The notes below the pieces were generated by a model that worked only from the letters and a program-made list of their open reading frames with translations, had not been told where the DNA came from and did no database searches. DNA of 64,000 bases, taken from Sphingomonas morindae (GTDB lineage Bacteria > Pseudomonadota > Alphaproteobacteria > Sphingomonadales > Sphingomonadaceae). The first letter of the stretch is position 1. Every line of letters begins with the position of its first letter. Below, piece by piece: positions 1 to 17,655 of this stretch. The stretch spans positions 1,752,001 through 1,816,000 of the forward strand of contig NZ_CP084930.1 of assembly GCF_023822065.1 (NCBI RefSeq), read 5' to 3'. A program made the position numbers and the translations under genes.

Positions 1-1570
1 CTACTTCCTCTTCAAGCCCTATGGGCGGATCGCCACGATCTTCATCATGGCGCTCGGCGCCGAGACGTTGCTCGATGGCGTGCCCACCGAACTCGGCGCG
101 CTGCCGCTGCTGACGGTGGCGGCGGCGCTGGCGCTGGCGATCACCCTGGTGCGGCGCCGCGCGGGGCGGATCGCGCTGCTCGCCGCGCTCGCCATCGGGC
201 TGCCGCTGCTCGCGGTGCTGTTGCCGCCGGGCGTCTATATGTCGGTCGTCCCCGCGCTGGGGTTGCTGCTGGTGATGCTGCTGGCCGAAATCATCGCCGG
301 CGGCCGCGAGCTGATGCGCCGGCGCGGCACCACCAATGCGGTGTCGGGTCTCGCCAATCTGTCGGCGCTGCGGGCGCTGCCCAACCATGGCGATCACCGG
401 CTGGTGGTGGCGCATGTGCATAATTTCGCCGATGCCATCGCCACCCTGCCGGCCAGCGCCGAGGCCGAGCTGATCGAGCAGATCGCCGGCCGGCTGCGGC
501 TGGGCGCCGCGCAGGCCGAACTCTACCAGGGCGACAATGGCGTGTTCGCCTGGCTCGCGGCCGAGGAGGCCGAGCGCATCGGCGACGATCTCAACGCGCT
601 CCACGCGCTGTTCCGCACCCCGGTGACGGTCGGCGGCCAGCCGCTGGACCTGTCGCTCACCTTCGGCGTCGACGATGACGGCTCGCGATCGCTCGCCAAC
701 CGGCTCGGCAGCGCGCTGGTCGCGGCGGGGGAGGCGGCGGTCGAGGGCGGCAAGTGGCGATTGTTCGATTCGACCCGGCTGGTCGAGGCGGCGTGGAAGC
801 TGTCGCTGCTCAGCCAATTGGATGCCGCGATCGACGATGGCCATATCTGGGTCGCCTATCAGCCCAAGCTCGATCTTCTGTCGCGCCGGCTGATCGGCGC
901 CGAGGCGCTGGTGCGCTGGACGCATCCCGAAAAGGGGGCGATCAGCCCGCTGGAATTCGTCTCCGCCGCCGAGCAGCACAACCGAATCGAGAAGCTGACG
1001 CGCCATGTGCTGGAGCGCGCGGTGCTCGCCGCCGCGACCATCAACGCGCACGGCTTCGTCTTCGGCATCGCCGTCAATCTGTCGGCGCGGCTGCTCGAAT
1101 CGCGCGATCTCGTGGCGATGGTCGACGAGGCGCTGCGGCGCCACGCCCTGTCGCCCAGCCTGCTGACGCTGGAGATCACCGAAACCGCGACTCTCACCAG
1201 CGGCCGCAGCCTGGAAGCGCTCAACGAGCTGCGCGCGCTCGGCGTCCGGATCTCGATAGACGATTATGGGACCGGTCTCTCGACTTTGGAATATTTGAAG
1301 AAAATTCCCGCGAGCGAGATAAAGATCGATCGCGTCTTCGTGCAGTCGATGCTCAACAATTCCAGCGACCTGCTGATGGTCAACTCGACCATCCAGCTCG
1401 GCCACTCGCTTGGTCACGCCGTTGTCGCGGAAGGCGTGGAAAGTGAAGAGGTGCTCATCAAGCTGGCTGACCTTCACTGCGACATCGCCCAGGGCTTCCA
1501 TATCGGCCGGCCGATGAGCTTCCAGGATCTGGCGCGCCGTCTATTAGCCGAACGTCGACAAGCCGCCTGA
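1..1570 (+). CDS. Membrane-anchored degenerate-GGDEF/EAL protein, 5' end outside window
   Basis: The frame is already open at the window edge, reading into a stretch that ends in AETLLDG. That resembles the end of CHASE2 sensor domains, so the first ATG at 47 is probably internal. Then come about three hydrophobic segments, a GGDEF-like domain whose signature has decayed (YQGDNGVFAW in place of GGDEF), and a C-terminal EAL domain. The EAL domain keeps the catalytic set: EAL in AEALVRW, Asn in VNLSARLL, Glu in EITET, the Asp pair in SIDDYGTG, Lys in EIKIDR, AEGVE, and Gln in AQGFHIGRP. It should therefore hydrolyse c-di-GMP to pGpG at the inner membrane, with the GGDEF part inactive or regulatory. 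CHASE2 is inferred from the last few residues only. It lies directly upstream of the micropeptide units. Confidence 0.88.
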   Translation, partial: YFLFKPYGRIATIFIMALGAETLLDGVPTELGALPLLTVAAALALAITLVRRRAGRIALLAALAIGLPLLAVLLPPGVYMSVVPALGLLLVMLLAEIIAGGRELMRRRGTTNAVSGLANLSALRALPNHGDHRLVVAHVHNFADAIATLPASAEAELIEQIAGRLRLGAAQAELYQGDNGVFAWLAAEEAERIGDDLNALHALFRTPVTVGGQPLDLSLTFGVDDDGSRSLANRLGSALVAAGEAAVEGGKWRLFDSTRLVEAAWKLSLLSQLDAAIDDGHIWVAYQPKLDLLSRRLIGAEALVRWTHPEKGAISPLEFVSAAEQHNRIEKLTRHVLERAVLAAATINAHGFVFGIAVNLSARLLESRDLVAMVDEALRRHALSPSLLTLEITETATLTSGRSLEALNELRALGVRISIDDYGTGLSTLEYLKKIPASEIKIDRVFVQSMLNNSSDLLMVNSTIQLGHSLGHAVVAEGVESEEVLIKLADLHCDIAQGFHIGRPMSFQDLARRLLAERRQAA

Positions 1571-1573
1571 TCC

Positions 1574-1589
1574 TTAATGTCTTGCTAAC
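1574..1589 (+). promoter_or_regulatory. CtrA-like box upstream of micropeptide gene 1
   Basis: TTAA, seven bases, CTAAC, starting four bases after the stop codon of the EAL gene. The known CtrA consensus is TTAA-N7-TTAAC, so this is a one-mismatch match. With 1922-1937 and 4592-4607 it shares the longer pattern CTTAA-N4-TTGCTAAC. It ends 67 bases before the peptide start codon, which suits a promoter-proximal site. No convincing -10 element can be fixed. Confidence 0.55.
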
Positions 1590-1656
1590 TAAGCTTTACT
1601 CTGCCAAAGACCGGTTCGCGGCCAGTTCGGCCGTGTGTGTAACTGGGGAATGAGAG

Positions 1657-1707
1657 ATGAGCTTCGTGAGCTTCATCCAGTGGGGCGGCGGCGTCGTTAA
1701 GGGCTGA
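1657..1707 (+). CDS. 16-residue micropeptide, copy 1
   Basis: A very short frame encoding MSFVSFIQWGGGVVKG. A purine-rich GGGGA at 1645-1649 sits about seven bases before the ATG, and a strong intrinsic terminator begins 20 bases after the stop. The second copy at 2002-2052 differs at three bases only: one changes Ser2 to Arg and two are silent Gly codon changes. The sequence around the frames is otherwise unrelated, which argues for selection on the peptide. The N-terminal half is hydrophobic and aromatic, followed by a Gly-Gly-Gly turn and a C-terminal Lys-Gly. It has no cleavable signal peptide and no Cys. I do not recognise the family. It could be a secreted or membrane-active micropeptide, or the coding part of a dual-function small RNA. 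Confidence 0.6.
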   Translation: MSFVSFIQWGGGVVKG

Positions 1708-1727
1708 GCCAACACTAGGTCAGGAAA

Positions 1728-1756
1728 GGCCCCGCCCTGCCGGCGGGGCCTTTTTT
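1728..1756 (+). terminator. Intrinsic terminator of micropeptide unit 1
   Basis: A perfect 9-bp stem (GGCCCCGCC at 1728-1736 with GGCGGGGCC at 1742-1750), a five-base loop, and six T at 1751-1756. It limits the transcript to roughly 150-180 nt. Confidence 0.88.
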
Positions 1757-1921
1757 CTGACCAGTCTCTGTCACATGTTTGACGCACAACTTCGTGCGGG
1801 GCGCGACGGTGCCGGACATTAGGTCTGGCGGCCGCGGCTTGTCATGTCCAGCGCCGAGAAGGACTTGCCGGCGACCCCTGCCCCGAAATGGGATCTGGTC
1901 CAAGTTGACTGGCAAATATAC

Positions 1922-1937
1922 TTAACCAGTTGCTAAC
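1922..1937 (+). promoter_or_regulatory. CtrA-like box upstream of micropeptide gene 2
   Basis: TTAA, seven bases, CTAAC, ending 64 bases before the start codon at 2002. The copy-1 spacing is 67 bases, so box and gene keep a fixed arrangement although the surrounding 250 bases have diverged. A TTGACT at 1905-1910 lies just upstream, but no well-spaced -10 goes with it. Binding by CtrA is inferred from the consensus only. Confidence 0.55.
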
Positions 1938-2001
1938 CAACTTCTGGGCTGGCATCAAATGGTCAGCGGCTGGGGATGGCCGCGATCAAAAGGAGAAGGC
2001 C

Positions 2002-2052
2002 ATGCGCTTCGTGAGCTTCATCCAGTGGGGTGGTGGCGTCGTTAAGGGCTGA
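2002..2052 (+). CDS. 16-residue micropeptide, copy 2
   Basis: Encodes MRFVSFIQWGGGVVKG, identical to copy 1 apart from residue 2 (Arg for Ser). The ribosome binding site is stronger here: AGGAGAAGG at 1991-1999 ends two bases before the ATG. An intrinsic terminator follows 18 bases after the stop. Two Gly codons differ silently (GGC in copy 1, GGT here). The better ribosome site supports real translation. Function is unknown. A leader-peptide role for nadE downstream is possible but less likely, because the unit ends in its own strong terminator and exists in two copies, one of which is not next to nadE. Confidence 0.65.
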   Translation: MRFVSFIQWGGGVVKG

Positions 2053-2070
2053 CCCACTTTCGGGATTGAA

Positions 2071-2101
2071 AAAGGCCTCGCTTCGCGGCGAGGCCTTTTT
2101 T
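2071..2101 (+). terminator. Intrinsic terminator of micropeptide unit 2
   Basis: AGGCCTCGC at 2073-2081 pairs with GCGAGGCCT at 2088-2096 around a TTCGCG loop. It is preceded by A residues and followed by a T run to 2101. Confidence 0.88.
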
Positions 2102-4291: not shown

Positions 4292-4495
4292 TCAGCCCTT
4301 GTGCAGCGCGCTCGGCTTGTGCGCCGCCTGCTTGCCCTTGTCCGTCTCGACCACGAATTGCGGATCGTCGGAGGAGGCGCGGACCTGATGGCCGGAGACC
4401 TTGGCGTCCTTGGTGAGCTTTTTCTTCACCGTGCCCTCGGCCTGGCCGCCATGGCTGTTCCACGTCACATGATCGCCGGTCTTGATGTCCGCCAT
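4292..4495 (-). CDS. DUF2945 / hypervirulence-associated TUDOR-type protein
   Basis: A 67-residue protein beginning MADIKTGDHVTWNSHGG and rich in Lys, His and Gln, of the DUF2945 family. These are small proteins with a TUDOR-like fold, often encoded near stress genes; their biochemical role is unknown. A GGGAG precedes the ATG at good spacing. Upstream on the same strand sits an EcfG-like promoter (4523-4547) and, further up, the third CtrA-like box. The frame stays open upstream to 4588, but that extension has no family similarity. Convergent with nadE, 24 bases apart. Confidence 0.85.
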   Translation of the reverse strand: MADIKTGDHVTWNSHGGQAEGTVKKKLTKDAKVSGHQVRASSDDPQFVVETDKGKQAAHKPSALHKG

Positions 4496-4591: not shown

Positions 4592-4607
4592 GTTAGCAAG
4601 TTGTTAA
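4592..4607 (-). promoter_or_regulatory. Third CtrA-like box, between divergent genes
   Basis: On the minus strand TTAA-CAACTTG-CTAAC, the same extended pattern CTTAA-N4-TTGCTAAC as the two micropeptide boxes. It lies 10 bases before the start codon (4617) of the small membrane protein on the plus strand and 96 bases before the DUF2945 gene on the minus strand. It could activate the latter or block the former. Confidence 0.45.
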
Positions 4608-4616
4608 GACTTGAGC

Positions 4617-4859
4617 ATGAGCCAGTCGCCCGTCCGCTTCAGCCCAGCCGCGCCCCGCCTTTTCCAGCCGGCCGGACGACCGCCGCTGCGTCGCTTCGGT
4701 CGCCGCCGGGCGCGTCGCCATCCGCTGCTGGCCCGGACCATGGCGCCCGCGCCTGTGCCGGCGCCGGCGCGCGCGCCGTGGCTGAGCGCGGCGGATCTGC
4801 GCTTCCTGGCGACCGCCTATCTGTGCGGCCTGATCTTCTTCTTCGTCATGCTGAGCTGA
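4617..4859 (+). CDS. Small C-tail-anchored membrane protein
   Basis: About 80 residues. The first 50 are Pro/Arg-rich and probably disordered. The C-terminus has one membrane segment, LATAYLCGLIFFFVML, directly before the stop, so it would be a tail-anchored protein. I do not recognise a family. A start at TTG 4611 is also possible. There is no clear ribosome site, and the CtrA-like box abuts the start. The 3' end overlaps the MFS gene on the other strand by 14 bases. Confidence 0.45.
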   Translation: MSQSPVRFSPAAPRLFQPAGRPPLRRFGRRRARRHPLLARTMAPAPVPAPARAPWLSAADLRFLATAYLCGLIFFFVMLS

Positions 4860-17235: not shown

Positions 17236-17314
17236 CGCGCGGCGCCGGCGCATGGCGGTGGCGCCGGCTTGCGCGCCGCCGCCGCCCGGCCTATATCCCT
17301 CCGTGCCGGCCTCG

Positions 17315-17655
17315 GCCGGCTATGACGATAAATGATGCCGTGTAATAGACGCAGCGGACCCGGGGGCAGTACCCGGCGGCTCCACCACAAGCCTCGCTTT
17401 CAGAGAGGCTTCTGACGGGGCCGAACCAGGATCGACGTGTGTTCAAAGGCGGTGTTTTCGTCCGGCCTGATTGAGCCGTTAAACCGATCAAATCCACAAG
17501 TGCCAACGACAACGAGGCGCTCGCTCTGGCCGCGTAACTGAACCCTCACGGGTGACGTTACCACAACCATAGCGCGGTTCGGTCCGCACCGGGCAACAGA
17601 AGCGGAATCCAGCGGCCGCCGGGGGGCCGGGCAACAGAACCCCCGGCACTTCCAC
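17315..17655 (+). ncRNA. ssrA: tmRNA, permuted two-piece form
   Basis: The tRNA-like 3' half comes first and the coding half second. The acceptor piece ends in CGGCTCC (17377-17383), A, CCA (17385-17387). The coding piece starts with GGGGCCG at 17417, which pairs with that CGGCTCC to form the seven-pair acceptor stem (one G-U). An intervening loop of about 29 bases is removed. The tag frame at 17502-17537 reads ANDNEALALAA then TAA, close to tags of other sphingomonads. Pseudoknot-rich GC sequence follows. With SmpB it rescues stalled ribosomes. Outer ends are approximate; the seven-pair stem and tag are certain. Confidence 0.93.
17502..17537 (+). other. tmRNA proteolysis tag frame
   Basis: Codons GCC AAC GAC AAC GAG GCG CTC and on to GCG TAA encode ANDNEALALAA. 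The C-terminal ALAA is the recognition end for ClpXP/ClpAP, and the AND start is typical of alphaproteobacterial tags. Confidence 0.93.

Follow-up and report, generated by a model that had tools for sequence, protein, structure and literature searches.

A sphingomonad micropeptide family linked to one lineage of CHASE2-EAL phosphodiesterases, with a possible role for CtrA

Results

Two micropeptide units downstream of a CHASE2-EAL gene

The window, i.e. the whole stretch of 64,000 nucleotides that was analysed, starts inside a gene for a 767-residue CHASE2-EAL protein, which is followed by two micropeptide genes (Table 1) and, further downstream, by a gene whose product has CN_hydrolase and NAD_synthase domains. 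On visual inspection the EAL signature residues look intact, and Pfam reports no GGDEF domain at E 0.01; the CHASE2-EAL protein is therefore expected, on general knowledge, to be an active c-di-GMP phosphodiesterase. The window also holds an alphaproteobacterial (permuted) tmRNA gene at 17265-17610 (+).

Table 1. Features of the micropeptide locus, in window coordinates
Feature	Sequence	Position	Strand	Basis
CHASE2-EAL c-di-GMP phosphodiesterase gene (predicted)		1..1570, start before window	+	Pfam EAL E 6e-64, CHASE2 E 1.9e-25
CtrA-type box, unit 1	TTAATGTCTTGCTAAC	1574..1589	+	consensus match; overlaps TTGCTA -35-like hexamer 1582-1587 (by eye)
Ribosome-binding site, copy 1	GGGGA	1645..1649	+	by eye
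Micropeptide gene, copy 1	MSFVSFIQWGGGVVKG	1657..1707	+	sequence, family survey, codon comparison
Intrinsic terminator, unit 1 (hairpin and T run)		1727..1756	+	scan; limits by eye
CtrA-type box, unit 2	TTAACCAGTTGCTAAC	1922..1937	+	consensus match; overlaps TTGCTA -35-like hexamer 1930-1935 (by eye)
Ribosome-binding site, copy 2	AAGGAG	1990..1995	+	by eye
Micropeptide gene, copy 2	MRFVSFIQWGGGVVKG	2002..2052	+	sequence, family survey, codon comparison
Intrinsic terminator, unit 2		2073..2101	+	scan; limits by eye

An earlier note on this DNA had described two near-identical 16-residue reading frames, and both its coordinates and its counts were reproduced: the coding sequences differ at 3 of 51 bases, and two of the three changes are silent (Sd 2, Nd 1). 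The copies lie on the same strand within a 55-nt direct repeat (93% identity, spacing 345 nt). The flanks were said to have diverged except for an upstream box, and they are indeed alike there; apart from the box, likeness outside the coding sequence is mainly confined to a few bases after the stop codon and a terminator arm. Near-identical coding sequences amid mostly diverged units form a pattern such as gene conversion or strong constraint would leave. A pattern search of the same genome allowing up to two mismatches returned the two window copies and no further near-copies.

The ribosome site that the note had placed before each frame is recognizable by eye in both units, and where it had seen a terminator 18-20 bases past each stop, a hairpin and T run resembling a terminator begin about 20 nt after the stop. 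A single terminator is weak evidence, because 5 kb contain four terminator-like sites compared to 2.5 (sd 1.8) in shuffled sequence. Across the family described below, a terminator is present in 74 of 79 units (both window copies counted) vs 10 of 232 control windows analysed with the same rule.

A family of micropeptides behind CHASE2-EAL genes

A CHASE2 alignment was used to search 397 genomes of the family, 188 of which had a match at E 1e-40. The 114 loci investigated consist of 14 loci from among the best EAL homologues and 100 loci among the matches listed, taken best-scoring first and then with a hand-made spread over genera; this choice is not neutral, since the search profile (A2) was derived from peptide-bearing rows. 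A micropeptide unit on the same strand was found at 78 of the 114 CHASE2-EAL loci, representing 78 genomes and 34 genera of the Sphingomonadaceae, and because the loci were a selected set this fraction is no family-wide rate. Curation had reduced 79 loci to 78 by removal of a spurious one (L191); second ORFs at L172 and L180 were dropped as well, and L045, L047 and L048 were inspected but are outside the counts.

The resulting 79 ORFs, both window copies included, encode 11-41 amino acids (median 25), and the distance from the EAL stop codon to their start is 57-431 nt (median 87). A single copy is present within the scanned stretch at 77 of the 78 loci; the genome of the window is the sole case with tandem copies. 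The peptides have a mean net charge of +2.2 and a basic tail, 72 of the 79 contain at least two Trp residues, and their usual core is [FI]W[DE]W-hydrophobic-x-GG. The strict core [FI]W[DENSQG]W-hydrophobic occurs in 55 of 79 ORFs and is thus usual, not universal. It is missing from 24, those of the window included: the window peptides carry FIQW-GGG, which in a loose alignment shares with FWDWLLGGG only the second Trp and the run of Gly. Judged by position, architecture and this loose alignment, they look like divergent family members despite the missing W-x-W core. The family, large and apparently undescribed, comprises sphingomonad peptides of 11-41 residues.

As to copies in related genomes, which the earlier note had looked to, near-identical sequence is absent: the window-peptide pattern had no match in nine further genomes from this genus, and the reversed control matched once, in G005. 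Divergent relatives, on the other hand, are present in 34 genera. The missing near-identical copies do not refute the gene, since synteny behind EAL homologues revealed tiny, divergent ORFs in a like layout.

The note had also stated that the peptide matches no known family, and this agrees with the database searches: ten longer relatives gave no match in Pfam and NCBIfam, one relative used as query gave none in the PDB, and in the window stretch Rfam reported nothing at gathering scores for the micropeptide units. The peptide core strings were absent from 5.39 million open papers, a collection in which few subscription papers or preprints are covered. Likewise, searches of mainly open papers for CtrA, CHASE2 or c-di-GMP and for small proteins brought up none that evidently describes the micropeptide.

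Codon comparisons

Selection was analysed in 14 comparisons within close groups, not all of which are independent because some share a sequence. Synonymous differences amounted to 62.3 in 219.3 sites and non-synonymous differences to 33.7 in 740.7 sites, giving a pN/pS of 0.16. Together with the relatives in 34 genera, this value supports the selection on a tiny translated peptide that the earlier note had suspected. Nor are the substitutions spread evenly over the codon: the 96 differences are distributed over positions 1, 2 and 3 as 19, 12 and 65. Third positions of the core vary as well; the invariant Trp codons cannot separate RNA from protein constraint. Taken as a whole, the codon comparisons indicate that the peptide is translated and under purifying selection. 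Conservation of the RNA alone is disfavoured by the third-position excess.

Association with a single phosphodiesterase group

A tree of 90 CHASE2 rows was calculated with IQ-TREE. It includes 56 loci with the same-strand unit (78 in total) and 32 lacking it (36 in total), together with the paralogue from the genome of the window and one unlabelled row (G257_L354); the peptide-less loci G382:C9, G009, G233 and G200 are outside the tree. It contains a paralogous clade of 29 rows (support 100/100), in which none of the 28 scored rows has the peptide. The paralogue of the window's own genome (G000_L353) belongs to this peptide-less clade, and a scan behind it found no unit. Among the other 61 rows, 56 have an adjacent unit on the same strand; in two the unit is inverted, in two it is intact but located at another genomic site, and for one none was found. 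The peptide label changes five times on the tree vs 27 times after shuffling, and none of 500 shuffles was as low. The window's EAL row (G000_L075) sits among the peptide-bearing rows, on a long branch and at a poorly supported fork. The contrast between the two clades is independent of the ranking by the non-neutral search profile.

A scan of both strands at the 36 loci without a same-strand unit revealed nothing at 34 of them and an inverted whole unit beside the EAL gene at the other two (G374, G354). Three genomes (G362, G188 and G382, the last with its EAL gene C9 outside the tree) have kept an intact unit apart from the EAL gene. In G007, where the enzyme of the ortholog group is present, no unit was detected with the strict-core pattern, which a divergent copy would escape. 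The genes downstream of the 78 loci fall into 44 clusters (blastp), the largest with 10 and 9 loci. The c-di-GMP phosphodiesterase gene that the earlier note had mentioned as a neighbour is a CHASE2-EAL gene, and on these comparisons no other gene accompanies the unit steadily. Because inverted and unlinked units are kept and the downstream genes form 44 clusters, the unit can be regarded as autonomous and most likely acts in trans.

Two other roles were rejected. A leader peptide or attenuator does not fit a terminator located after the ORF and next genes that vary so widely. If the unit were no more than part of the 3' end of the EAL mRNA, it would be found neither inverted, as at two loci, nor unlinked, as in three genomes.

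Independent pattern scans

The degenerate pattern TTYTGGGAYTGGYTNNTNGGNGG, which represents FWDWLxGG, was run on the 397 family genomes with the reversed pattern as control. It gave 24 matches and the control none, and all 24 are located just downstream of an EAL gene; the EAL assignment was flagged by the script in 17 cases, and rests on a visible EAL tail in four and on coordinates in three.

A slightly wider pattern matched 83 stretches of the GTDB collection, 80 of which were read. In 42 of these, the motif is part of a short ORF that starts with ATG and has a ribosome site; the other 38 have it in long ORFs or show no such ORF. All but one of the 42 are labelled as sphingomonads or, in three cases, as Alphaproteobacteria or Rhodospirillales MAGs; besides MAGs, these 41 include Aurantiacibacter, Alteraurantiacibacter, Erythrobacter, Altererythrobacter, Blastomonas, Sphingomonas, Sphingobium, Sphingosinicella, Sphingorhabdus and Parasphingopyxis. 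The exception is a Campylobacterales MAG with no EAL gene in front. Upstream of the 41, an EAL gene was flagged by the script in 32 cases, recognized by its tail in two and masked by an ORF in another frame in three; one has a degenerate EAL tail and three are at the edge of the stored stretch. Blastomonas natatoria, Sphingobium boeckii and Sphingosinicella microcystinivorans are among the species that carry the unit.

In one record, L239 (a MAG labelled Rhodospirillales), the peptide is identical to that of the sphingomonad G109, and we therefore suspect that this record may be mislabelled or contaminated.

CtrA-type boxes upstream of the units

Both window boxes read TTAA-N7-CTAAC, one change (CTAAC for TTAAC) from the CtrA consensus TTAA-N7-TTAAC as given in PMC7200025. 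With patterns composed after the boxes had been seen, three matches were obtained in the 64-kb window vs 0.02 in shuffled sequence, and two of the three belong to the micropeptide units. Candidate -10 elements 17 nt beyond the -35-like hexamers (CAAAGA and CATCAA) are poor as judged by eye.

The third box, TTAACAACTTGCTAAC at 4592-4607 (-), is located between two divergent genes, one for a 67-aa Hva1_TUDOR (PF11160) protein at 4292-4495 (-), the other an 82-aa ORF at 4611-4859 (+) that Pfam does not match and whose product has a hydrophobic C-terminus.

For the family, boxes were counted in the 170 nt upstream of each of the 79 ORFs, with shuffles as control. TTAA-N7-TTAA with at most one mismatch precedes 50 of the 79 units vs 7.5 in shuffles (maximum 16), and the exact motif precedes eight vs 0.3. 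A spacing of 7 gave the highest count among spacings from 4 to 13, the others being found upstream of 5-29 of the 79. The half-sites TTAACC/GGTTAA occur 97 times vs 7.5 in shuffles (maximum 20). Upstream of the EAL genes themselves (250 nt), full CtrA-type boxes are present at only 2 of 30; half-sites precede 14 of the 30 (21 occurrences in all), and for this reason the EAL gene is perhaps itself not free of CtrA. In an Erythrobacter-like clade (L046, L157, L172, L188 and relatives), TTAA-N7-TTAA is replaced by two GGTTAA-type repeats which, by eye, are about 22-24 bp (about two turns) apart and flank a TTTACA hexamer. This different spacing hints that the regulator or the binding mode may have changed in that clade.

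A ChpT homologue is present in the genome of the window; among 14 control genomes, the ChpT family matched Caulobacter only. According to PMC2877005, the CckA-ChpT-CtrA pathway is kept in Sphingomonadales and the DivJ-PleC-DivK branch is degenerate or lost. The micropeptide boxes resemble those of known CtrA regulon genes in sequence and in their position over the -35 region (PMC7200025). No comparable micropeptide target is apparent among the mainly open papers found on CtrA.

Structure of the leader

Pairing of the ribosome site has a family mean of 0.711 vs 0.619 in shuffles (sd 0.019), and 57 ordinary genes have 0.584. In the window copies masking is partial to weak (0.50 and 0.25), and for the family the idea of a masked ribosome site holds only modestly. 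A clade of ten (L117, L118, L120, L121, L124, L128, L130, L134, L136 and L140) shares a 5' hairpin that masks the ribosome site. Covariation in this hairpin, whose structure was derived from the same alignment that was tested, is 0.398 vs 0.234 shuffled (0 of 500 shuffles as high), and three measures agree. The number of pairs changed on both sides (5 vs 3.9; 122 of 500) is not supportive. As the masking hairpin covaries, translation of the micropeptide may be gated by it in these ten.

Discussion

The comparisons presented here show, at the level of sequence, a coding sequence, a compact unit with a promoter-like box of its own, and linkage to one enzyme lineage. We propose, giving it about an even chance, that the unit encodes a CtrA-controlled, trans-acting micropeptide that works with the CHASE2-EAL phosphodiesterase. 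Each copy would be an autonomous unit of about 150 nt, consisting of a CtrA-type promoter, a short 5' leader, a Shine-Dalgarno sequence, the ORF and a strong terminator. Its product would be a short Trp-containing micropeptide that is under purifying selection and most likely acts in trans. In the Sphingomonadaceae the unit is inherited together with a single orthologous group of membrane CHASE2-EAL enzymes and is missing beside the paralogous group. The peptide would bind or otherwise tune the phosphodiesterase or its membrane complex, so that CtrA activity would set the peptide level and the peptide level would adjust c-di-GMP breakdown. The role of CtrA as regulator, the contact between peptide and enzyme, and the sign and place of action are the parts of this model that we infer.

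The peptide might instead be translated and have another target, such as the membrane, a protein of the CtrA pathway or the flagellar or pilus machinery, sharing a process and a neighbourhood with the enzyme and having no contact with it. The promoter-like box of the unit and its retention where inverted or unlinked are compatible with this, and a basic tail with a Trp core would suit the membrane interface. We nevertheless consider such a target rather unlikely, given the association with a single enzyme clade, the absence beside paralogues and the position of every exact pattern match behind an EAL gene.

The compact RNA with its 5' hairpin and strong terminator also recalls a dual-function small RNA, in which base pairing would be the main role and the peptide secondary. 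The hairpin covariation in the clade of ten would fit such an RNA, with both-side changes close to the shuffled value. Conservation tracks the amino-acid core, however, and not third positions, and alignments A3 and A4, inspected by eye, have no unpaired stretch in common outside the ORF. Rfam gave 11 sub-threshold matches, all to unrelated families. We regard this alternative as improbable.

CHASE2 is an extracytoplasmic sensor domain, and a peptide gene adjoining its receptor gene is a common plan, so that the product could in principle be an exported pheromone for which the partner enzyme's CHASE2 domain would be the sensor. The streptococcal pheromones XIP and SHP offer a parallel: short ORFs beside a receptor gene, encoding Trp-rich or GG-ending peptides. 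They come from another phylum and act on another receptor type, and the likeness is one of description. No signal peptide was recognized by eye in the sphingomonad peptides, and their fast-evolving tails would demand co-evolution with the receptor; a pheromone thus appears quite improbable. Least probable to us is a type I toxin-like membrane peptide gated by the leader hairpin, which a tiny Trp-rich peptide, the tandem copies of the window and a ribosome site paired more than in shuffles would suit, but not the partial masking in the window, the one copy at 77 of 78 loci and the steady inheritance with the enzyme gene, since toxin loci are scattered in their distribution.

If the CtrA-controlled micropeptide does work with the phosphodiesterase, a peptide layer would be added to c-di-GMP control and the sphingomonad CtrA pathway would gain a specific output. 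In other Alphaproteobacteria c-di-GMP acts on CckA and hence on CtrA (PMC9756655), and a CtrA-controlled phosphodiesterase partner would therefore close a loop. More tentatively, and at somewhat less than an even chance, the peptides of at least 34 genera may be a dedicated trans-acting cofactor of one phosphodiesterase lineage and a missing CtrA-to-c-di-GMP feedback arm in an order whose DivJ-PleC-DivK branch is degenerate. A large environmental bacterial family would then carry micropeptides, down to 11 residues, that are small enough to escape gene finders. The survey also shows that conserved ORFs far below 20 codons are detectable via synteny with an orthologous group.

Several known systems resemble the units in part. 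Type I toxins with masked ribosome sites have a tiny hydrophobic ORF, a structured leader, a terminator and occasional tandem copies; unlike them, the sphingomonad peptide is inherited with the enzyme of one ortholog group. MgrB, SafA and AcrZ are small-protein regulators, and DbfQ, a periplasmic small protein encoded beside dbfRS (PMC12714742), is another of this kind. In these cases too, the gene for a very small protein lies close to one for a signalling protein of the membrane. Unlike DbfQ-type regulators, the sphingomonad peptides have only 11-41 residues and no signal peptide by eye, possess their own CtrA-type box and terminator, and are tied to a c-di-GMP phosphodiesterase.
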